Assembly (NCBI RefSeq): GCF_007004135.1
Contig: NZ_VJMG01000043.1
Location: 1-64,000 of the forward strand
Direction: 5' to 3'
DNA from: Affinirhizobium straminoryzae
GTDB taxonomy: Bacteria; Pseudomonadota; Alphaproteobacteria; Rhizobiales; Rhizobiaceae
DNA: 64,000 bases
Shown: piece by piece, positions 15,285 to 31,420 of the stretch
Layout: every line of letters starts with the position of its first letter
How positions within the stretch are numbered: the first letter of the stretch is position 1
Notes under the pieces: model-generated
What the model was told of the DNA's origin: nothing
Seen by the model: the letters and a program-made list of their open reading frames with translations, nothing else
Database searches by the model: none
Program-made: the position numbers and the translations under genes

Positions 15285-15893
15285 ATGACGTCCTATTCCC
15301 TGACCTGCCTCAACAATTCGACGCTCTCCGGCAGCTTCGCCGTCTTCCAGAAGGCGCCGCCGACCACGGTCCCGGGCAACATCTTCTCGCTCGCCTGGTT
15401 CACCCGGCCGACGGCACCGAACACCAAGGTAACCTTTACCTGGAACCTCGATTACAGCTTCGTCTGGTCCGAAACCGGCATCCTGCAGCCCGGCATCAAC
15501 TTCAACGCCTCGCAGGTGGTGCCGGCCAATCCGAACGGCCAGAACCTGATCCAGCTGAAGCTCGACAATTATGGCGCGACGACCTTCGCCAACCAGAGCG
15601 CCAGCGGGGCCATCGGTTCGCTCACCATCGAGCAGCTGTCGAACGTGGCCCCGAACCGTACCTCGGTCGGCATCGGCATGGCCGGCTCCGGCACCTTTGC
15701 CGTGCAGGCACAGCCGAACATGACCGCCGTCTTCACGCCCCACCCGAACTACTGGGTGATCTTCGGCAATTTCGAGACCGGTGACGTCATCGACATCGAA
15801 GATGTCACGGGCGCCGTCGAGGTGACCTATGGCGGCGCGCTGACCTCGCGCACGGCAGTGCTCGGCCTCGACAACATGATCACGGTCTCCTGA
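15285..15893 (+). CDS. RhiA-like protein 1 (tentative)
   Basis: A 202-residue protein without signal peptide or membrane span. It is rich in Asn, Thr, Phe and Trp and predicted to be mostly beta. Features shared with the next gene: YxLxCxNxSxxxGxFxxxQ at the start, LAWFTRP/LAWLSRP, VTFTW followed by SFVW, ASQVVPANP/ACQQVPAHP, VGIGMAGSGTF/VGIAIGGSAVY and YWVIFGNFETGDVID/YWVTFGGYSPGEAID. From memory this pattern resembles RhiA of Rhizobium leguminosarum, an abundant rhizosphere-induced protein of unknown biochemistry; I could not check it. A 12-bp inverted repeat precedes the gene. Confidence 0.6.
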   Translation: MTSYSLTCLNNSTLSGSFAVFQKAPPTTVPGNIFSLAWFTRPTAPNTKVTFTWNLDYSFVWSETGILQPGINFNASQVVPANPNGQNLIQLKLDNYGATTFANQSASGAIGSLTIEQLSNVAPNRTSVGIGMAGSGTFAVQAQPNMTAVFTPHPNYWVIFGNFETGDVIDIEDVTGAVEVTYGGALTSRTAVLGLDNMITVS

Positions 15894-15901
15894 TGCCAGA
15901 C

Positions 15902-15926
15902 GGTGGCCGCACGATGTGCGGCCACC
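15902..15926 (+). promoter_or_regulatory. 11-bp perfect hairpin between the two RhiA-like genes
   Basis: GGTGGCCGCAC (15902-15912) pairs perfectly with GTGCGGCCACC (15916-15926) around a GAT loop. There is no T-run. It lies 8 bp after the first gene and 32 bp before the second. It probably stabilises the upstream mRNA or attenuates the downstream genes, giving unequal expression. Confidence 0.55.
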
Positions 15927-15957
15927 ACAACCTTTCCGGTTCGAGAGGAGAGCCGCC

Positions 15958-16575
15958 ATGCCCGATTATCGACTGATCTGCGCCAACACCTCCCGCATGC
16001 ACGGGAATTTCTCGATCTATCAGATGCCGCCTCAGACGGAGAGCATCCAGCAGGTTGTCAGCCTCGCCTGGCTGTCGCGCCCCGCTCCTCCCTCGAGTTC
16101 GGTTACGTTCACATGGTCCACGGCCATGTCCTTCGTCTGGGGGGAACGCGGAAGGTTCCGCGGACGATCCTATTTCGCCGCCTGCCAGCAGGTTCCGGCC
16201 CATCCGGAGCGGGAGAACCTGATCGATCTGACCTCTGAGGAGTTGGGCTCGCCGTTTTTTGCAAACCTGCGCGGCGGCGGCCCCTCCGGCGCGCTGACCG
16301 TGCGGCAGCGCAACGCCATCTTCAACTATCCCGTCCATGTGGGAATCGCGATCGGCGGGTCCGCCGTCTACACCGTCGAATTCCAGGCCAACATCTCGAC
16401 CAGCTTCATCGCCCACCGCGACCGCTACTGGGTGACGTTCGGCGGCTACAGCCCCGGCGAGGCCATCGATGCCACAAGCGTGACGAATGGCGTCGTGCTG
16501 GACTTCAGCCCGATCAACCCGACGCTGAGCGTGGTCATGGGGCCGGACAACATCCTGCGGCACGGGCCTGCGTGA
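15958..16575 (+). CDS. RhiA-like protein 2 (tentative)
   Basis: A 205-residue paralogue of the preceding protein, alignable along its whole length with moderate identity: same N-terminal motif (YRLICANTSRMHGNFSIYQ), same LAW-RP, VTFTW and SFVWGERG block, same YWVTFGGYSPGEAID block near residue 165, and a matching C-terminus (VMGPDNIL versus VLGLDNMI). GAGAGGAG nine bases upstream fixes the ATG at 15958. No signal peptide. It differs in charge from its partner (more Arg), so the two may have diverged in partner or ligand. They may form a heteromeric assembly, by inference. Confidence 0.6.
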   Translation: MPDYRLICANTSRMHGNFSIYQMPPQTESIQQVVSLAWLSRPAPPSSSVTFTWSTAMSFVWGERGRFRGRSYFAACQQVPAHPERENLIDLTSEELGSPFFANLRGGGPSGALTVRQRNAIFNYPVHVGIAIGGSAVYTVEFQANISTSFIAHRDRYWVTFGGYSPGEAIDATSVTNGVVLDFSPINPTLSVVMGPDNILRHGPA

Positions 16576-17529: not shown

Positions 17530-18102
17530 TCACATCCCCTGCGGGCCGCGGTTCATCGCGGCAATGCCGGTGCGGCAGACCTCGATCAGGCCGAGCGGCT
17601 TCATCACCGCGACGAACTGGTCGATCTTCGAGGATTTTCCGGTGATCTCGAAGATGAAATGGGAAACCGTCGCATCCACCACCTTGGCGTGGAAGGCATC
17701 CGCCAGGCGGAGCGTCTCGGCGCGGCCTTCGCCGGTGCCGGCCACCTTGACGAGGGCGACCTCGCGTTCGATCGGGCGTTCCTGGCCGAGCTGGCTGGCG
17801 CGCACCGTCAGGTCCACCACGCGGTGAACCGGGACGATGCGATCAAGCTGCGCCTTGATCTGCTCCAGAACGCTCGGCGTACCTGTCGTGACGATGGTGA
17901 TGCGCGACAGGTGTGCCTCATGCTCCGTTTCGGAGACCGTCAGGCTTTCGATGTTGTAGCCGCGGCCGGAAAACAGGCCGATGACGCGGGCCAGCACGCC
18001 CGGTTCGTTGCTGACGAGAACCGAGAGCGTATGGCGTTCCTGGCGGGCGCTTTCCTGCTGGATGAAATAGGCCGAGCCGGTGGGTTGAAGGTGTGCGTTC
18101 AT
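17530..18102 (-). CDS. ilvH: Acetolactate synthase small (regulatory) subunit
   Basis: A 190-residue regulatory subunit that activates the catalytic subunit and confers valine feedback inhibition. The N-terminal ACT domain is visible as HTLSVLVSNEPGVLARVIGL with FSGRGYNIESL; the C-terminal ALS_ss_C domain follows from about residue 110 (REVALVKV). It is 32 bp downstream of ilvI in the same operon, under the leader attenuator at about 20 kb. Confidence 0.95.
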   Translation of the reverse strand: MNAHLQPTGSAYFIQQESARQERHTLSVLVSNEPGVLARVIGLFSGRGYNIESLTVSETEHEAHLSRITIVTTGTPSVLEQIKAQLDRIVPVHRVVDLTVRASQLGQERPIEREVALVKVAGTGEGRAETLRLADAFHAKVVDATVSHFIFEITGKSSKIDQFVAVMKPLGLIEVCRTGIAAMNRGPQGM

Positions 18103-18134: not shown

Positions 18135-19913
18135 TCAGACGAGCTGCCGGCCCTTCGCGTCGATGGCATTGGCAACGGCTTCGTCGGTCGCCTCGTCCGG
18201 CAGCAGCATCTCGTTATGCGCCTTGCCCGAAGGGATCATCGGGAAGCAGTTGGCGAGATTGGCAACCCGGCAATCGAAGATCACCGGACGGTTGACGGCA
18301 ATCATCTCGGCGATCTTGTCGTCCAGTTCCGCGGGCTTGTCGCAATACATGCCGACTGCACCATAAGCCTCCGCCAGCTTGACGAAGTCCGGCATGGCTT
18401 CCGTATAGGAGTTCGACAGACGGTTGCCATGCAGCAGCTGCTGCCACTGGCGCACCATGCCCATATACTGGTTGTTGAGGATGAAGATCTTCACCGGCAA
18501 GCCGTACTGGATGGCGCAGGACATTTCCTGGATGCACATCTGGATCGAGGCGTCACCGGCAATGTCGATGACGAGCGCTTCCGGATGTGCCACCTGCACG
18601 CCGATCGCCGCCGGCAGGCCATAGCCCATCGTGCCGAGGCCGCCCGATGTCAGCCAGCGGTTCGGCGCCTCGAAGCCGAAGAACTGCGCCGCCCACATCT
18701 GGTGCTGGCCGACTTCCGTCGTGACATAGGTCTCCCGCCCCTTCGACGCCTCATAGAGCCGTTGGATCGCATATTGCGGCATGATGACATCGTTGGAATT
18801 CTTGTAGGCGAAGGAATTGCGGGCGCGCCAGCGGCTGATCTGCTGCTGCCATTCCTCCGTCTGTGCCTTTTCGGGCTTCTTCGGCAAGGCGCGCCACAGG
18901 CGAACCATGTCTTCCAGAACGCGACCGACATCGCCGACGATCGGAATGTCGACGCGGACATTCTTGTTGATCGAGGACGGGTCGATGTCGATGTGGATCT
19001 TGCGCGAGTTCGGCGAAAACGCATTCAGGCGGCCGGTGATGCGGTCGTCGAAGCGTGCGCCGATGCAGACCATGACGTCGCAATCATGCATCGCCATGTT
19101 CGCCTCGTAGGAACCGTGCATGCCGAGCATGCCGAGCCAGTTCTTGCCGGAGGCCGGATAGGCGCCCAGGCCCATCAGCGTCGAGGTGATCGGGAAATCC
19201 GTCAGCTCCACCAGTTCGCGCAAGAGCTTGGTCGCTTCCGGACCAGAATTGATGACCCCGCCACCGGTATAGAGGATCGGGCGACGGGCAGACGCCATCA
19301 GTTCGACGGCGGCGCGCACCGCGTTCAGGTCACCCTCGACCTTCGGCTTGTAGCTCTTCTGGACGACATGATCGGCCTTCGGCGTGTAGGTGCCGGTGGC
19401 AAACTGGATGTCCTTCGGAATATCGACGACGACCGGACCCGGACGGCCGGTCTGGGCGATGCGGAAGGCTTCGTGAATGGTGGCCGCCAGTTCGTTGACG
19501 TCCTTCACCAGCCAGTTGTGCTTGGTGCAGGGGCGCGTGATGCCGACGGTATCGCATTCCTGGAAGGCGTCGGAACCGATCAGCGTGGTGGGCACCTGGC
19601 CGGTGAGGCAGACGAGCGGGATCGAATCCATCAGCGCGTCCTGCAGCGGCGTCACCGCATTGGTGGCACCCGGACCGGAGGTGACCAGCATCACGCCGAC
19701 CTTGCCGGTGGAGCGCGCATAGCCTTCCGCCGCATGGCCGGCGCCCTGCTCGTGACGGACAAGAATGTGCTGGATGTCGTCCTGCTGGAAGATCTCGTCA
19801 TAGATCGGCAGCACGGCGCCGCCCGGATAGCCGAAAACATGCTCGACCCCGTTGTCCTTCAGGGCTCTCAGAACGATTTCCGCCCCTGTCATCCGATTGT
19901 CTGTGTCCGTCAT
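18135..19913 (-). CDS. ilvI: Acetolactate synthase large (catalytic) subunit
   Basis: A 592-residue ThDP-, FAD- and Mg2+-dependent enzyme that condenses two pyruvates, or pyruvate plus 2-oxobutyrate, as the first committed step to Val/Leu/Ile. N-terminal VFGYPGGAVLPIYDE and LVRHEQGAGHAAEGYAR include the catalytic Glu. The ThDP motif GDASIQMCIQEMS with downstream NNQYMGMVRQWQ is near the C-terminus. The ATG at 19913 matches family N-termini (MTDTDNRMTGAEIV); a GTG at 19943 would add ten residues. Expression is likely set by the attenuator ending at 19969. Confidence 0.96.
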   Translation of the reverse strand: MTDTDNRMTGAEIVLRALKDNGVEHVFGYPGGAVLPIYDEIFQQDDIQHILVRHEQGAGHAAEGYARSTGKVGVMLVTSGPGATNAVTPLQDALMDSIPLVCLTGQVPTTLIGSDAFQECDTVGITRPCTKHNWLVKDVNELAATIHEAFRIAQTGRPGPVVVDIPKDIQFATGTYTPKADHVVQKSYKPKVEGDLNAVRAAVELMASARRPILYTGGGVINSGPEATKLLRELVELTDFPITSTLMGLGAYPASGKNWLGMLGMHGSYEANMAMHDCDVMVCIGARFDDRITGRLNAFSPNSRKIHIDIDPSSINKNVRVDIPIVGDVGRVLEDMVRLWRALPKKPEKAQTEEWQQQISRWRARNSFAYKNSNDVIMPQYAIQRLYEASKGRETYVTTEVGQHQMWAAQFFGFEAPNRWLTSGGLGTMGYGLPAAIGVQVAHPEALVIDIAGDASIQMCIQEMSCAIQYGLPVKIFILNNQYMGMVRQWQQLLHGNRLSNSYTEAMPDFVKLAEAYGAVGMYCDKPAELDDKIAEMIAVNRPVIFDCRVANLANCFPMIPSGKAHNEMLLPDEATDEAVANAIDAKGRQLV

Positions 19914-19968: not shown

Positions 19969-19994
19969 AAAAAAAGGCCCCTTGAGGAGCCTTT
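19969..19994 (-). terminator. Attenuator terminator upstream of ilvI
   Basis: On the minus strand AAAGGCTCC pairs with GGGGCCTTT (one G-U) around TCAA and runs into seven T residues: a textbook intrinsic terminator placed 55 bp before the ilvI ATG. With the branched-chain-rich leader peptide upstream it forms an attenuator. An upstream stem, GCGCATGGG (20046-20038) with CCCATGCGC (20007-19999), encloses a second hairpin, GGACGG with CCGTCC (20035-20030 with 20024-20019), overlapping the leader stop codon. Confidence 0.85.
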
Positions 19995-20024
19995 GGTAGC
20001 GCATGGGTGGCTGTCGCCGGACGG

Positions 20025-20081
20025 TTACACCGTCCTGCCCATGCGCCTTCCCACCACGATAAGTGCGTTCGATACGATCAT
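20025..20081 (-). CDS. ilvL: ilvIH leader peptide MIVSNALIVVGRRMGRTV
   Basis: An 18-codon frame (ATG 20081, TAA 20027-20025) rich in the regulatory amino acids: two Ile, four Val and one Leu, with Ile-Val-Val and Ile-Val runs. It is followed by competing hairpins and a terminator before ilvI, the classical layout of branched-chain amino acid attenuation: ribosomes stalled on scarce Ile/Val-tRNA would favour antitermination. No Shine-Dalgarno sequence precedes it; the promoter-like elements place transcription start at or near the ATG, so it may be translated leaderless. The symbol is by analogy. Confidence 0.75.
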   Translation of the reverse strand: MIVSNALIVVGRRMGRTV

Positions 20082-20089
20082 GGGAAGAA

Positions 20090-20118
20090 CCGTTAGCCAG
20101 AAAATTGCGGCTCGTCAA
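20090..20118 (-). promoter_or_regulatory. Probable ilvIH promoter
   Basis: On the minus strand a -35-like TTGACG (20118-20113) is separated by 17 bp from TAACGG (20095-20090). This spacing predicts a start about 7-9 bases on, at 20083-20081, coinciding with the leader ATG. The -10 match is weak compared with TATAAT. Confidence 0.45.
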
Positions 20119-20286: not shown

Positions 20287-22224
20287 TTGCACGATCAAAA
20301 CCCTGCCCTCTCCGCCCGCCTGCCGGACCGGCGCGATGCCGAGGCGGCCGGCAACCGTCTGCTCGGGCGCGTGGTGGCCTGCACAGGTGCCCGCGCCACG
20401 ATTGCAGCAAGCTCGGAGGCCGGCTCTACCACCCATGCCGAACTCTGGGCCGTCGGGCGGCTGGTCTCGATCGCGGTCGGCCGCAACCGCGTGGTCGCGC
20501 TCGCCTATGCCATGCAGGCGGCCACGCAAGAATGGTCGGCCACGGATGCCAACGCCTTCCGGGTGGAGGTGGAACTGCTCGGCGAAGTGCGGGTGGGCGC
20601 CGATGGCAGCGACCTGTTTTCGACCGGCATTTCGCGCTATCCGCATCTCGGCGCGGCCGTGCACCGCATCCGCGCCGGCGACCTGCAGCGCATCTACGAT
20701 CCCGGCACGCCGGACAGCTGCAGCATCGGCCGGCTGACGCAGGATGCGGCAATCGATGCGACGATCCACATTCCCTCGATGCTCGCCAAGCATTTCGCCA
20801 TCGTCGGCTCCACCGGCGTCGGCAAATCGACGGCGGCGACGCTGCTGCTCCGCAAGGCGATCGAGGCCGATCCGAAGCTGCGCGTGCTCATCCTCGATCC
20901 GCACAATGAATTTGCCGCCGCGTTTCCGGATCTTGCCGTGGTGATCGACACCGACACGCTGGACCTGCCCTTCTGGCTGATGCGGCTCGAGGAGTTTTCC
21001 GAAGCGGTGTTTCGCGGCCGTCCGCCAGTGGCCGAGGAACTGGATGTGCTGCGCGACCTGATACCGGAGGCAAAACGCGCCTTTCGCGGCGGCGATCCGG
21101 GCCGACGCCCCGCAGATCGCGGCACGATTACCGCTGACACGCCCGTGCCCTACCGGATGTCGGACCTGATCGCGCTGATCGACGAGCGGATGGGAAGGCT
21201 CGACGGACGTGACGAGAAGCCGGCGCTGCGGGCGTTGAAGGTGCGGCTGATGTCGGTCGTCAATGATCCGCGCTACCAGTTCATGTTCTCCAGCAATACG
21301 ATCCATGACACGATCCTGGAGACGATCACACGCATCTTCCGGATTCCGGGCGGTGACAGGCCGATCTGCACCTTCCAGCTGGCGGGTATCCCCTCCGAAG
21401 TGGTGAATTCCGTCGCCTCCGTGCTTTGCCGGATGGCTTTCGAGATTGGCCTGTGGAGCGAAGGCGCGGTGCACATGCTGGTGGTCTGCGAGGAAGCGCA
21501 TCGCTATGTACCGGCCGATGCCACGCTCGGCTTCCTGCCGACGCGCCAGGCCATTGCCCGCATTGCCAAGGAGGGCCGCAAATACGGCGTCTCGCTCGGC
21601 ATCATCACCCAGCGCCCCGGCGAACTCGACCAGACGATCCTGTCGCAATGTTCCACCGTCTTCGCAATGCGCCTTGCCAATGAGCGCGACCAGGAGATCA
21701 TCCGCTCGGCCTTGCCGAATTCCGGCGCCTCGACCGTCAGCTTCCTGTCGGCAATCGGCAATGGCGAGGCGATTGCCTTCGGCGAGGCGATCAGCGTGCC
21801 GATGCGCTTGACATTCGAGCGGATCGAACCCCACCGTCTTCCGACAGCCCACGGCCTTGCCGCACGCACAGCGGAGACCACGCCCGAAACCGTGGATCTG
21901 CGCCGGATCGTCTCCCGCATGCGGTCCATTGCGGAACTGGATATTTCCGATTTCCAGAAAAGCGTGCTGGGAAGCCTGCCGGACGAGGAGCCGGATCTGT
22001 TTGCGCCCCCTGCCCCTTCCTCGCCGATGGATGCCGCCCTCGAACCCTATCGCCCGGACATGCTGCCCGGCACCCGGCTGTCGGCCCATCCGCCAGAGAC
22101 GCGGCTGATCCGGCGCGAATGGTCACCAGCCAGCGGCTCGTCCATCACGTCCGGCTCCGGCAGCAATGAACGCTCCCCGCGCGATCCGTTCCGCCCGCCG
22201 CGAGAGGGCTGGCGCGAGGAGTGA
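20287..22224 (+). CDS. HerA-like ATPase (HAS-barrel plus DUF87)
   Basis: A 645-residue HerA/FtsK-type translocase ATPase. The N-terminal ~130 residues resemble a HAS-barrel. Walker A GSTGVGKST has Lys180; Walker B is VVCEEAHRYVP; sensor-like segments ITQRPGELDQTILSQCSTVF and MRLANERDQEIIRSALP follow. HerA proteins form hexamers that work with NurA nuclease in end resection, or with other nucleases in defence systems; no nuclease gene is adjacent. The start is a TTG at 20287 after GAAGGG. The C-terminal ~60 residues are Pro/Ser/Arg-rich and probably disordered. Confidence 0.85.
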   Translation: MHDQNPALSARLPDRRDAEAAGNRLLGRVVACTGARATIAASSEAGSTTHAELWAVGRLVSIAVGRNRVVALAYAMQAATQEWSATDANAFRVEVELLGEVRVGADGSDLFSTGISRYPHLGAAVHRIRAGDLQRIYDPGTPDSCSIGRLTQDAAIDATIHIPSMLAKHFAIVGSTGVGKSTAATLLLRKAIEADPKLRVLILDPHNEFAAAFPDLAVVIDTDTLDLPFWLMRLEEFSEAVFRGRPPVAEELDVLRDLIPEAKRAFRGGDPGRRPADRGTITADTPVPYRMSDLIALIDERMGRLDGRDEKPALRALKVRLMSVVNDPRYQFMFSSNTIHDTILETITRIFRIPGGDRPICTFQLAGIPSEVVNSVASVLCRMAFEIGLWSEGAVHMLVVCEEAHRYVPADATLGFLPTRQAIARIAKEGRKYGVSLGIITQRPGELDQTILSQCSTVFAMRLANERDQEIIRSALPNSGASTVSFLSAIGNGEAIAFGEAISVPMRLTFERIEPHRLPTAHGLAARTAETTPETVDLRRIVSRMRSIAELDISDFQKSVLGSLPDEEPDLFAPPAPSSPMDAALEPYRPDMLPGTRLSAHPPETRLIRREWSPASGSSITSGSGSNERSPRDPFRPPREGWREE

Positions 22225-30974: not shown

Positions 30975-31059
30975 ACCCGGCCTCACCCAGCAGAAAGGCG
31001 CGCCGATGACGTTTGCACGACAGAGGCCTTTTCATCCTCCCCGGAAACTCCTATATGGG

Positions 31060-31370
31060 GAGTGCCGGGGCTTGCTCCGGCTATGGCAATAAACGGTCGG
31101 TGTAATAAACCTATTGGACCCGGGGGCGGTACCCGGCGCCTCCACCAGAAACCGGTCGGTCTTTTCCGTGTGAAAGACCGGCTTCTGATGGGGGCGAAAT
31201 AGGATCGACAAGGGCGTAAAGATCGAACTTTTGCTCGGCATGATACCGCCGTTATCGGGTCACAAGTGTAGTTGCAAACGACAACAACGCTAAGGAATAC
31301 GCTCTCGCTGCCTAATGGCGGTGCGGGAATTCCGCTCCAAGTCCTCTAGGTTAGCCCCTTGAGGCGGGGT
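31060..31370 (+). ncRNA. ssrA: tmRNA, circularly permuted two-piece form
   Basis: The order is acceptor piece first, coding piece second, as in alphaproteobacteria. The acceptor piece runs to CCTCCACCA at 31139-31147, with the T-arm in the preceding CCCGG/CCCGG segment. After an excised spacer of about 40 bases the coding piece begins GGGGGCG at 31190, which pairs with CGCCTCC of the acceptor end. The tag frame is 31274-31315 (GCA resume codon, TAA stop) and encodes ANDNNAKEYALAA. The ends are approximate: 5' near 31060, 3' near 31370. sspB follows, whose product binds this tag. Confidence 0.9.
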
Positions 31371-31372
31371 CC

Positions 31373-31420
31373 GAAGGCACCTGGCAACAGAAGCCTTCAC
31401 CTTCCCTTTTCCCTGTTTTT
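31373..31420 (+). terminator. Probable ssrA terminator
   Basis: GAAGGC (31373-31378) pairs with GCCTTC (31393-31398), then a pyrimidine-rich run ending CCCTGTTTTT. The position fits the 3' end of the tmRNA precursor. Confidence 0.45.

Follow-up and report, generated by a model that had tools for sequence, protein, structure and literature searches.

How expression of the acetolactate synthase genes of rhizobia may be coupled to the supply of branched-chain amino acids (BCAA), and whether this coupling follows the classical attenuation scheme, is the question raised by a short region upstream of ilvI in Affinirhizobium straminoryzae, studied here within a window of 64,000 nucleotides, the whole stretch of DNA that was analysed. 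The products of ilvI and of the neighboring ilvH match Pfam acetolactate synthase families. The first-pass annotation had recognized an 18-codon frame, a 9-bp stem, an inner stem over the stop codon and a terminator in this region, and had read them as ribosome-mediated attenuation. All four parts were recovered on the minus strand: the frame runs from an ATG at 20081-20079 to a TAA at 20027-20025, GCGCATGGG (20046-20038) is exactly complementary to CCCATGCGC (20007-19999), GGACGGT (20035-20029) pairs with ACCGTCC (20025-20019), and a hairpin (19994-19973) with seven T residues (19975-19969) lies 55 nt before the ilvI ATG at 19913. The features considered are as follows.

20090..20118, minus strand: promoter-like pair, TTGACG (20118-20113) and TAACGG (20095-20090), with a 17-nt spacer
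20025..20081, minus strand: leader ORF MIVSNALIVVGRRMGRTV with stop codon TAA; control codons Leu7 Ile8 Val9 Val10 (20063-20052)
19998..20047, minus strand: helix P1, 20047-20038 with 20007-19998; GCGC clamp at 20046-20043
20019..20035, minus strand: helix P2 around the stop codon, 20035-20029 with 20025-20019 (folding)
20009..20018, minus strand: small hairpin P2b, GGC (20018-20016) and GCC (20011-20009) (folding)
19969..19994, minus strand: intrinsic terminator, hairpin 19994-19973 and seven T at 19975-19969 (sequence and folding)
18135..19913, minus strand: ilvI, acetolactate synthase large subunit (Pfam; start from the match at 19913)
17530..18102, minus strand: ilvH, acetolactate synthase small subunit (Pfam)

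Folding of 20081-19960 recovered the stems named in the annotation, with a predicted energy of -55.2 kcal/mol (z = -4.17) that none of 200 shuffled sequences reached. The outermost P1 pair (20047 with 19998) is a G-U pair without covariation support, and the P1 clamp begins 8 nt past the first base of the last Val codon. The Rfam model RF02502 ('Rhizobiales sRNA Atu_C8') matches 20079-19959 of the minus strand (score 110.9 bits, gathering cut-off 50 bits), covering model positions 1-122 of 122, and this is its single match in the genome; since the model spans practically the same stretch, the leader is this catalogued RNA. The long-range helix of the Rfam structure, which joins bases before P1 to bases after the T run, lies past the terminator and so cannot guide termination. 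A second ORF, which begins at an ATG within the 3' strand of P1, crosses the terminator and ends 1 nt short of the ilvI ATG, is open in the window, yet many relatives have ATG CGC TAG at this place, and it was rejected as a candidate. Elsewhere in the window, a HerA/DUF87 ATPase gene (20287-22224, plus strand) diverges from the ilvI leader, and the arrangement DUF87, element, ilvI and ilvN recurs in a Sinorhizobium meliloti record. Two adjacent plus-strand ORFs of about 200 codons each (15285-15893 and 15916-16575) look alike by eye, and a search for a Pfam match to either found none; an alphaproteobacterial tmRNA gene (RF01849, 301.6 bits) occupies 31025-31401 of the plus strand.

Nearly every genome of the family has the element; in the order it is common, and outside the order it is rare. 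Matches to RF02502 at E <= 0.001 occur in 240 of 247 Rhizobiaceae genomes (234 over the cut-off), in 161 of 297 genomes at the order level (49 over the cut-off) and in 3 of 142 at the class level, the window's own genome included, while control genomes gave 0 of 14 at each of the three levels. Five of the seven family genomes that lack the element also lack IlvI at E <= 1e-30, and the other two do have ilvI. Among 80 ilvI loci picked by IlvI protein similarity alone, 79 carry a stretch similar to the window's leader, 78 of them at E <= 0.0055; locus L106 has such a stretch only at E = 1 and locus L110 has none. A further 60 order-level loci were picked from the listed Rfam matches, and ilvI lies downstream in 59 of these; the position of their helices was partly predetermined by the search, codon identity and the downstream gene being independent of it. 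As a check on this bias, 51 ilvI loci were selected by IlvI similarity, most of them from genomes without an Rfam match; a crude rule applied to the 420 nt upstream picked out a short BCAA leader with a T run after it in 13 of them, some of these being spurious.

The 170 leaders collected yielded 153 distinct core-to-terminator sequences, 93 in the family/IlvI set and 60 in the order set. Two leaders (L083 and L100) were unparseable and were left out; L083, from a metagenome-assembled genome, has GGGGGCC and a T run directly after the leader stop and lacks the P1 3' strand and the terminator 5' arm, either through natural deletion or through an assembly fault. In every parsed leader a run of Ile, Leu or Val codons, mostly at least four, stands at the same place before the stem. 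As the core was defined as a run of these residues, its end has fractions of 1.00 by construction, which carry no weight as evidence; the fourth position from the core end is Ile, Leu or Val in 0.94 of the leaders, the fraction falls to 0.00-0.15 at positions 0 to +6 after the core, and it reaches 0.66 at +7, which is the final Val of many peptides. The last two core positions are Val in 125 and 136 of the 153 leaders, and synonymous variants of the core codons are in use among them. The residues that follow vary by clade, RMGRMV being present in many Rhizobiaceae and others elsewhere in the order, as expected if the RNA and not the peptide is selected there. The annotation had made its reading depend on conservation of the leader codons in relatives, and the codon run is indeed kept across the order.

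Helix P1, with at least 8 bp around the stop codon when single bulges are allowed, is present in all 153 leaders, and a second helix inside it around the stop in 151; P2b is found in 87 and absent in 66. Covariation, which the annotation had named as a check, was assessed independently of any fold by anchoring both strands on the GCGC motif alone, which succeeded for 132 leaders (75 distinct strand pairs) and not for 21. P1 covaries at five positions inside the clamp: pairing there is 0.87-0.89 and at every one of them exceeds the highest value from 1000 permutations (0.87, 0.75, 0.57, 0.84 and 0.63), the first only just, and these statistics ignore the kinship of the sequences. At positions six to eight, pairing among the anchored leaders is not above the permutation maximum, and at the pair adjoining the clamp (position -1) the observed 0.45 equals it, for which reason no covariation is claimed there. 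Within Rhizobiaceae there is almost no variation in the upper P1 sequence; outside the family the P1 sequence changes and the pairing is kept. GCGC is found in both P1 arms in 142 of the 153 leaders, and in 135 (88 of 93 in the family set, 47 of 60 in the order set; 133 overall if only the first GCGC is counted) it stands exactly 8 nt past the first base of the last branched-chain codon. The helices of frameshift signals stand at about the same 8-nt offset relative to the A site. With this offset, P1 would be in contact with a ribosome paused on the last Val codon and would not have to be opened by it. On the other side, the distance from the P1 end to the GC part of the terminator is 1-10 nt, with a median of 7.

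A three-way junction whose sequence is strongly conserved in the family could also be expected of a metabolite-binding aptamer, in which case P1, P2 and P2b would form a riboswitch and the ORF would be secondary. Such an aptamer would have to dispense with P2b in 66 of the 153 leaders and to tolerate compensatory variation of P1 and P2 across the order, while both the codon run and the spacing between it and P1 are preserved; a riboswitch is accordingly regarded as very improbable.

The position of the leader ORF relative to its promoter is also conserved. TTGACG and TAACGG of the window are taken here to be promoter hexamers, and TTGAC starts 37 nt before the leader ATG; it does so at 35-38 nt in 84 of the 93 family leaders (64 of them at 37), against 1% in shuffled sequences, and a Shine-Dalgarno-like sequence is seen in 2 of the 93. 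In the order set, TTGAC is found at 35-39 nt in 13 of 60 leaders and a Shine-Dalgarno-like sequence in 29 of 60. To judge from the promoter spacing, the Rhizobiaceae leader ORF appears to be leaderless, with a putative transcription start at or beside the ATG. The rhizobial trpL has been described as a leaderless leader ORF in the cited account (PMC10117765) and offers a precedent.

The element is also found away from ilvI. It matches 15 plasmid records, 10 of which are the same places found independently by a protein search with a Bcr/CflA-type transporter; the other five matches are in records all of at least 3.5 Mb, and the one examined lies upstream of ilvI and ilvN. Together with eight further genomes, the 10 plasmid loci make up 18 exporter loci chosen for an element or a transporter match (L286-L288, L290-L296, L242, L243, L247, L256, L257, L258, L262 and L263). 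All 18 have a BCAA leader (e.g., MKIAMVLVVVIGRMGRMV) and a terminator before a Bcr/CflA-type MFS transporter, with TTGAC lying 36-39 nt ahead of the leader ATG and both strands of P1 present. The 30 top-ranking homologues of the transporter that were fetched from the family include nine with at least 46% identity, of which five have the element and perhaps a sixth (L264); none of the 21 below 46% has it convincingly. Two of three transporters tested score above the TIGR00710 cut-off and one below. In Rhizobium sp. Kim5 the exporter gene follows genes for a cytochrome P450, a 2Fe-2S protein and an oxidoreductase.

This distribution bears on the possibility that the RNA acts mainly in trans, as the small RNA Atu_C8, with the leader peptide and the terminator as by-products. 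Rfam assigns the family the type 'sRNA', the upper part of P1 hardly varies in Rhizobiaceae, and trans functions have been described for the rhizobial trp attenuator RNA, as far as the cited source goes (PMC10117765); the trans-acting and attenuator roles are, besides, compatible. An RNA acting chiefly in trans is nevertheless considered improbable, given that the element is positioned before ilvI or before one type of exporter, that the codon run is kept despite synonymous changes, and that outside the family the P1 sequence is free to vary so long as pairing is retained.

If the leader is an attenuator, the classical scheme requires an antiterminator, and the annotation had offered GTGGTGG in the leader with CCACC downstream as one option. 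The letters exist in the window and the pairing is unsupported: it is not kept in relatives with GTAGTAGG or CTCCCATGCGC, the match being gone where the Val codons are GTA or the 3' strand is CTCCC. A first measure, the equilibrium probability of the terminator under a masked ribosome, predicted the terminator at every ribosome position in the window; it was dropped after the E. coli controls were run, five of the six showing no switch (0.89 or more at every codon) and only phe a fall. It was replaced by a purely thermodynamic test, the strand-3 test, which asks whether the terminator 5' arm is paired before the 3' arm exists, comparing a ribosome at a control codon (the best codon taken) with one at the stop, for three assumed ribosome fronts (+8, +11 and +13) and a threshold difference of 0.4. 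A second measure, the cost of losing the terminator, was given a difference threshold of 4 kcal. Seven controls were used, the E. coli thr, ilvG, leu, trp, his and phe leaders and the trp leader of the window's genome, whose ORF MKTSMIMVIWWWAR was located about 200 nt before trpE (locus L177).

In the strand-3 test the controls gave 0.60-0.84 when stalled versus 0.01-0.37 at the stop over the three fronts, and 5/7, 7/7 and 7/7 reached 0.4 at +8, +11 and +13, the two misses at +8 being E. coli leu and trp; the trp leader of the window's genome shows a classical antiterminator. The ilvI leaders reach the threshold in 2, 4 and 9 of 153 cases at the three fronts, with a median stall-minus-stop difference of -0.01, 0.01 and 0.03, and the window reaches it at no front (0.19, 0.32 and 0.36 stalled versus 0.36, 0.47 and 0.47 at the stop). 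The cost of terminator loss differs by at least 4 kcal in 5/7, 6/7 and 7/7 controls and in 2/153, 2/153 and 24/153 ilvI leaders. In the window this cost is 11.8 kcal stalled versus 5.5 at the stop at +8, 9.4 versus 9.6 at +11, which is no difference, and 6.1 versus 9.8 at +13, with the sign reversed. The terminator is thus favored more with P1 intact at +8, so that folding alone is opposite in sign to what ilvIH would need. As the strand-3 test finds no antiterminator, the GTGGTGG:CCACC option fails, and no classical antiterminator is predicted in the ilvI leader. The BCAA leader peptide, the intrinsic terminator before ilvIH and the order-wide codon run of the original attenuation reading stand, and its suggested antiterminator does not.

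A textbook attenuator could still operate if stalling freed a strand that pairs with the 5' or the 3' arm of the terminator in a way invisible to nearest-neighbor folding, the pairing being a pseudoknot, short-lived or aided by a protein. The list of parts is the same as in known attenuators, a few leaders do reach the threshold at each front, the cost measure at +13 leans this way in the 24 leaders just mentioned and by 3.7 kcal in the window, and the test is imperfect in that two controls fail at +8. The near-zero medians over 153 leaders weigh against it, as does the success of all seven controls at +11 and +13, and in the predicted fold of the window the loops left free within P1 have only 3-4 nt, which leaves little room for a pseudoknot. 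A hidden antiterminator is therefore thought unlikely, with a small but appreciable chance.

The preferred reading is that the ilvIH leader is probably a variant of the ribosome-mediated attenuator that senses charged Ile, Leu and Val tRNAs and in which the state of P1, and not a competing antiterminator, is decisive. Transcription would start at or beside the leader ATG and the ribosome would begin at the RNA end. When branched-chain tRNAs are short, the ribosome would wait with one of the LIVV codons in its A site, its front touching the GC clamp of P1 without having to open the helix; when they are plentiful, it would reach the stop codon inside P2 and open P1. The state of P1 would then determine whether transcription stops at the terminator, yielding an RNA of about 120 nt that would correspond to the 'Atu_C8' RNA, or reads through into ilvIH. 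Because ilvIH should rise in starvation, intact P1 is presumed to hinder termination by proximity, favoring read-through via its closeness to the terminator or to the polymerase. The sensor side of this model (codons, ribosome and P1) is well supported; the output side is more conjectural.

More tentatively, it is proposed that P1 may be an antitermination device that works without strand exchange, placed between the front of the stalled ribosome, which it abuts, and the terminator, which is within 10 nt of it. Such a device would be portable, because no sequence need be shared with the terminator, and may in this way have been moved before the Bcr/CflA-type exporter in rhizobia.

Attenuation before these genes is not in itself new. 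PMC1273637 cites Vitreschak et al. (2004; PMID 15135544) on an alphaproteobacterial ilvB leader peptide, a table listing 'ilvIH cis regulatory' in S. meliloti cites the same work (PMC2573895), and attenuation of Caulobacter ilvIH, with a named leader CDS, is described in PMC4117421, where Tarleton 1994 is cited for the ilvBN/ilvIH attenuator; according to these sources, an ilvIH attenuator had already been predicted in this group. The predicted alphaproteobacterial ilvB/ilvI and Caulobacter attenuators share with the present element an Ile/Val leader peptide before ilvBN or ilvIH, and in the cited passages neither a promoter-to-ATG rule nor a clamp offset is mentioned, nor a test for an antiterminator or a copy before a transporter. 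Likewise, no mention of the exporter copies was found in the titles and abstract openings searched, one query among them being on transporters. RF02502 covers the same stretch, but is filed as a small RNA gene, whereas here it is read as a terminated ilvIH leader with a conserved ORF. The seven control leaders have cognate codons and a terminator, as the ilvI leader does, and switch in the strand-3 test, whereas the ilvI leader does not; with respect to a trp-type attenuator, the leader ORF with a run of end-product codons and the terminator before the first structural gene are both present, and the thermodynamic test found no antiterminator that takes up a terminator arm on stalling. In the Corynebacterium ilvB-II motif and ilvBNC leader, as outlined in the cited accounts (PMC10272879, PMC11857589), a short BCAA uORF lies within a helix P1 followed by a terminator helix, as here, but their authors propose an antiterminator overlapping the terminator, of the kind not seen in the ilvI leader. 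To this prior knowledge the present analysis adds the exporter copies, the rule for the clamp offset and the lack of a predicted antiterminator.

If a hidden antiterminator exists, the element would be an ordinary ilvIH attenuator of the kind already predicted. If the preferred reading is true, attenuation would proceed without an antiterminator, the distances among a stalled ribosome, one helix and a terminator being sufficient as a switch; a function would be assigned to an Rfam family whose sole listing is as a small RNA, and BCAA sensing would be tied to an export pump in nodule bacteria. Should P1 also act as the portable device suggested above, the exporter would be switched on by starved or blocked charging of branched-chain tRNAs, for example by an antimetabolite.
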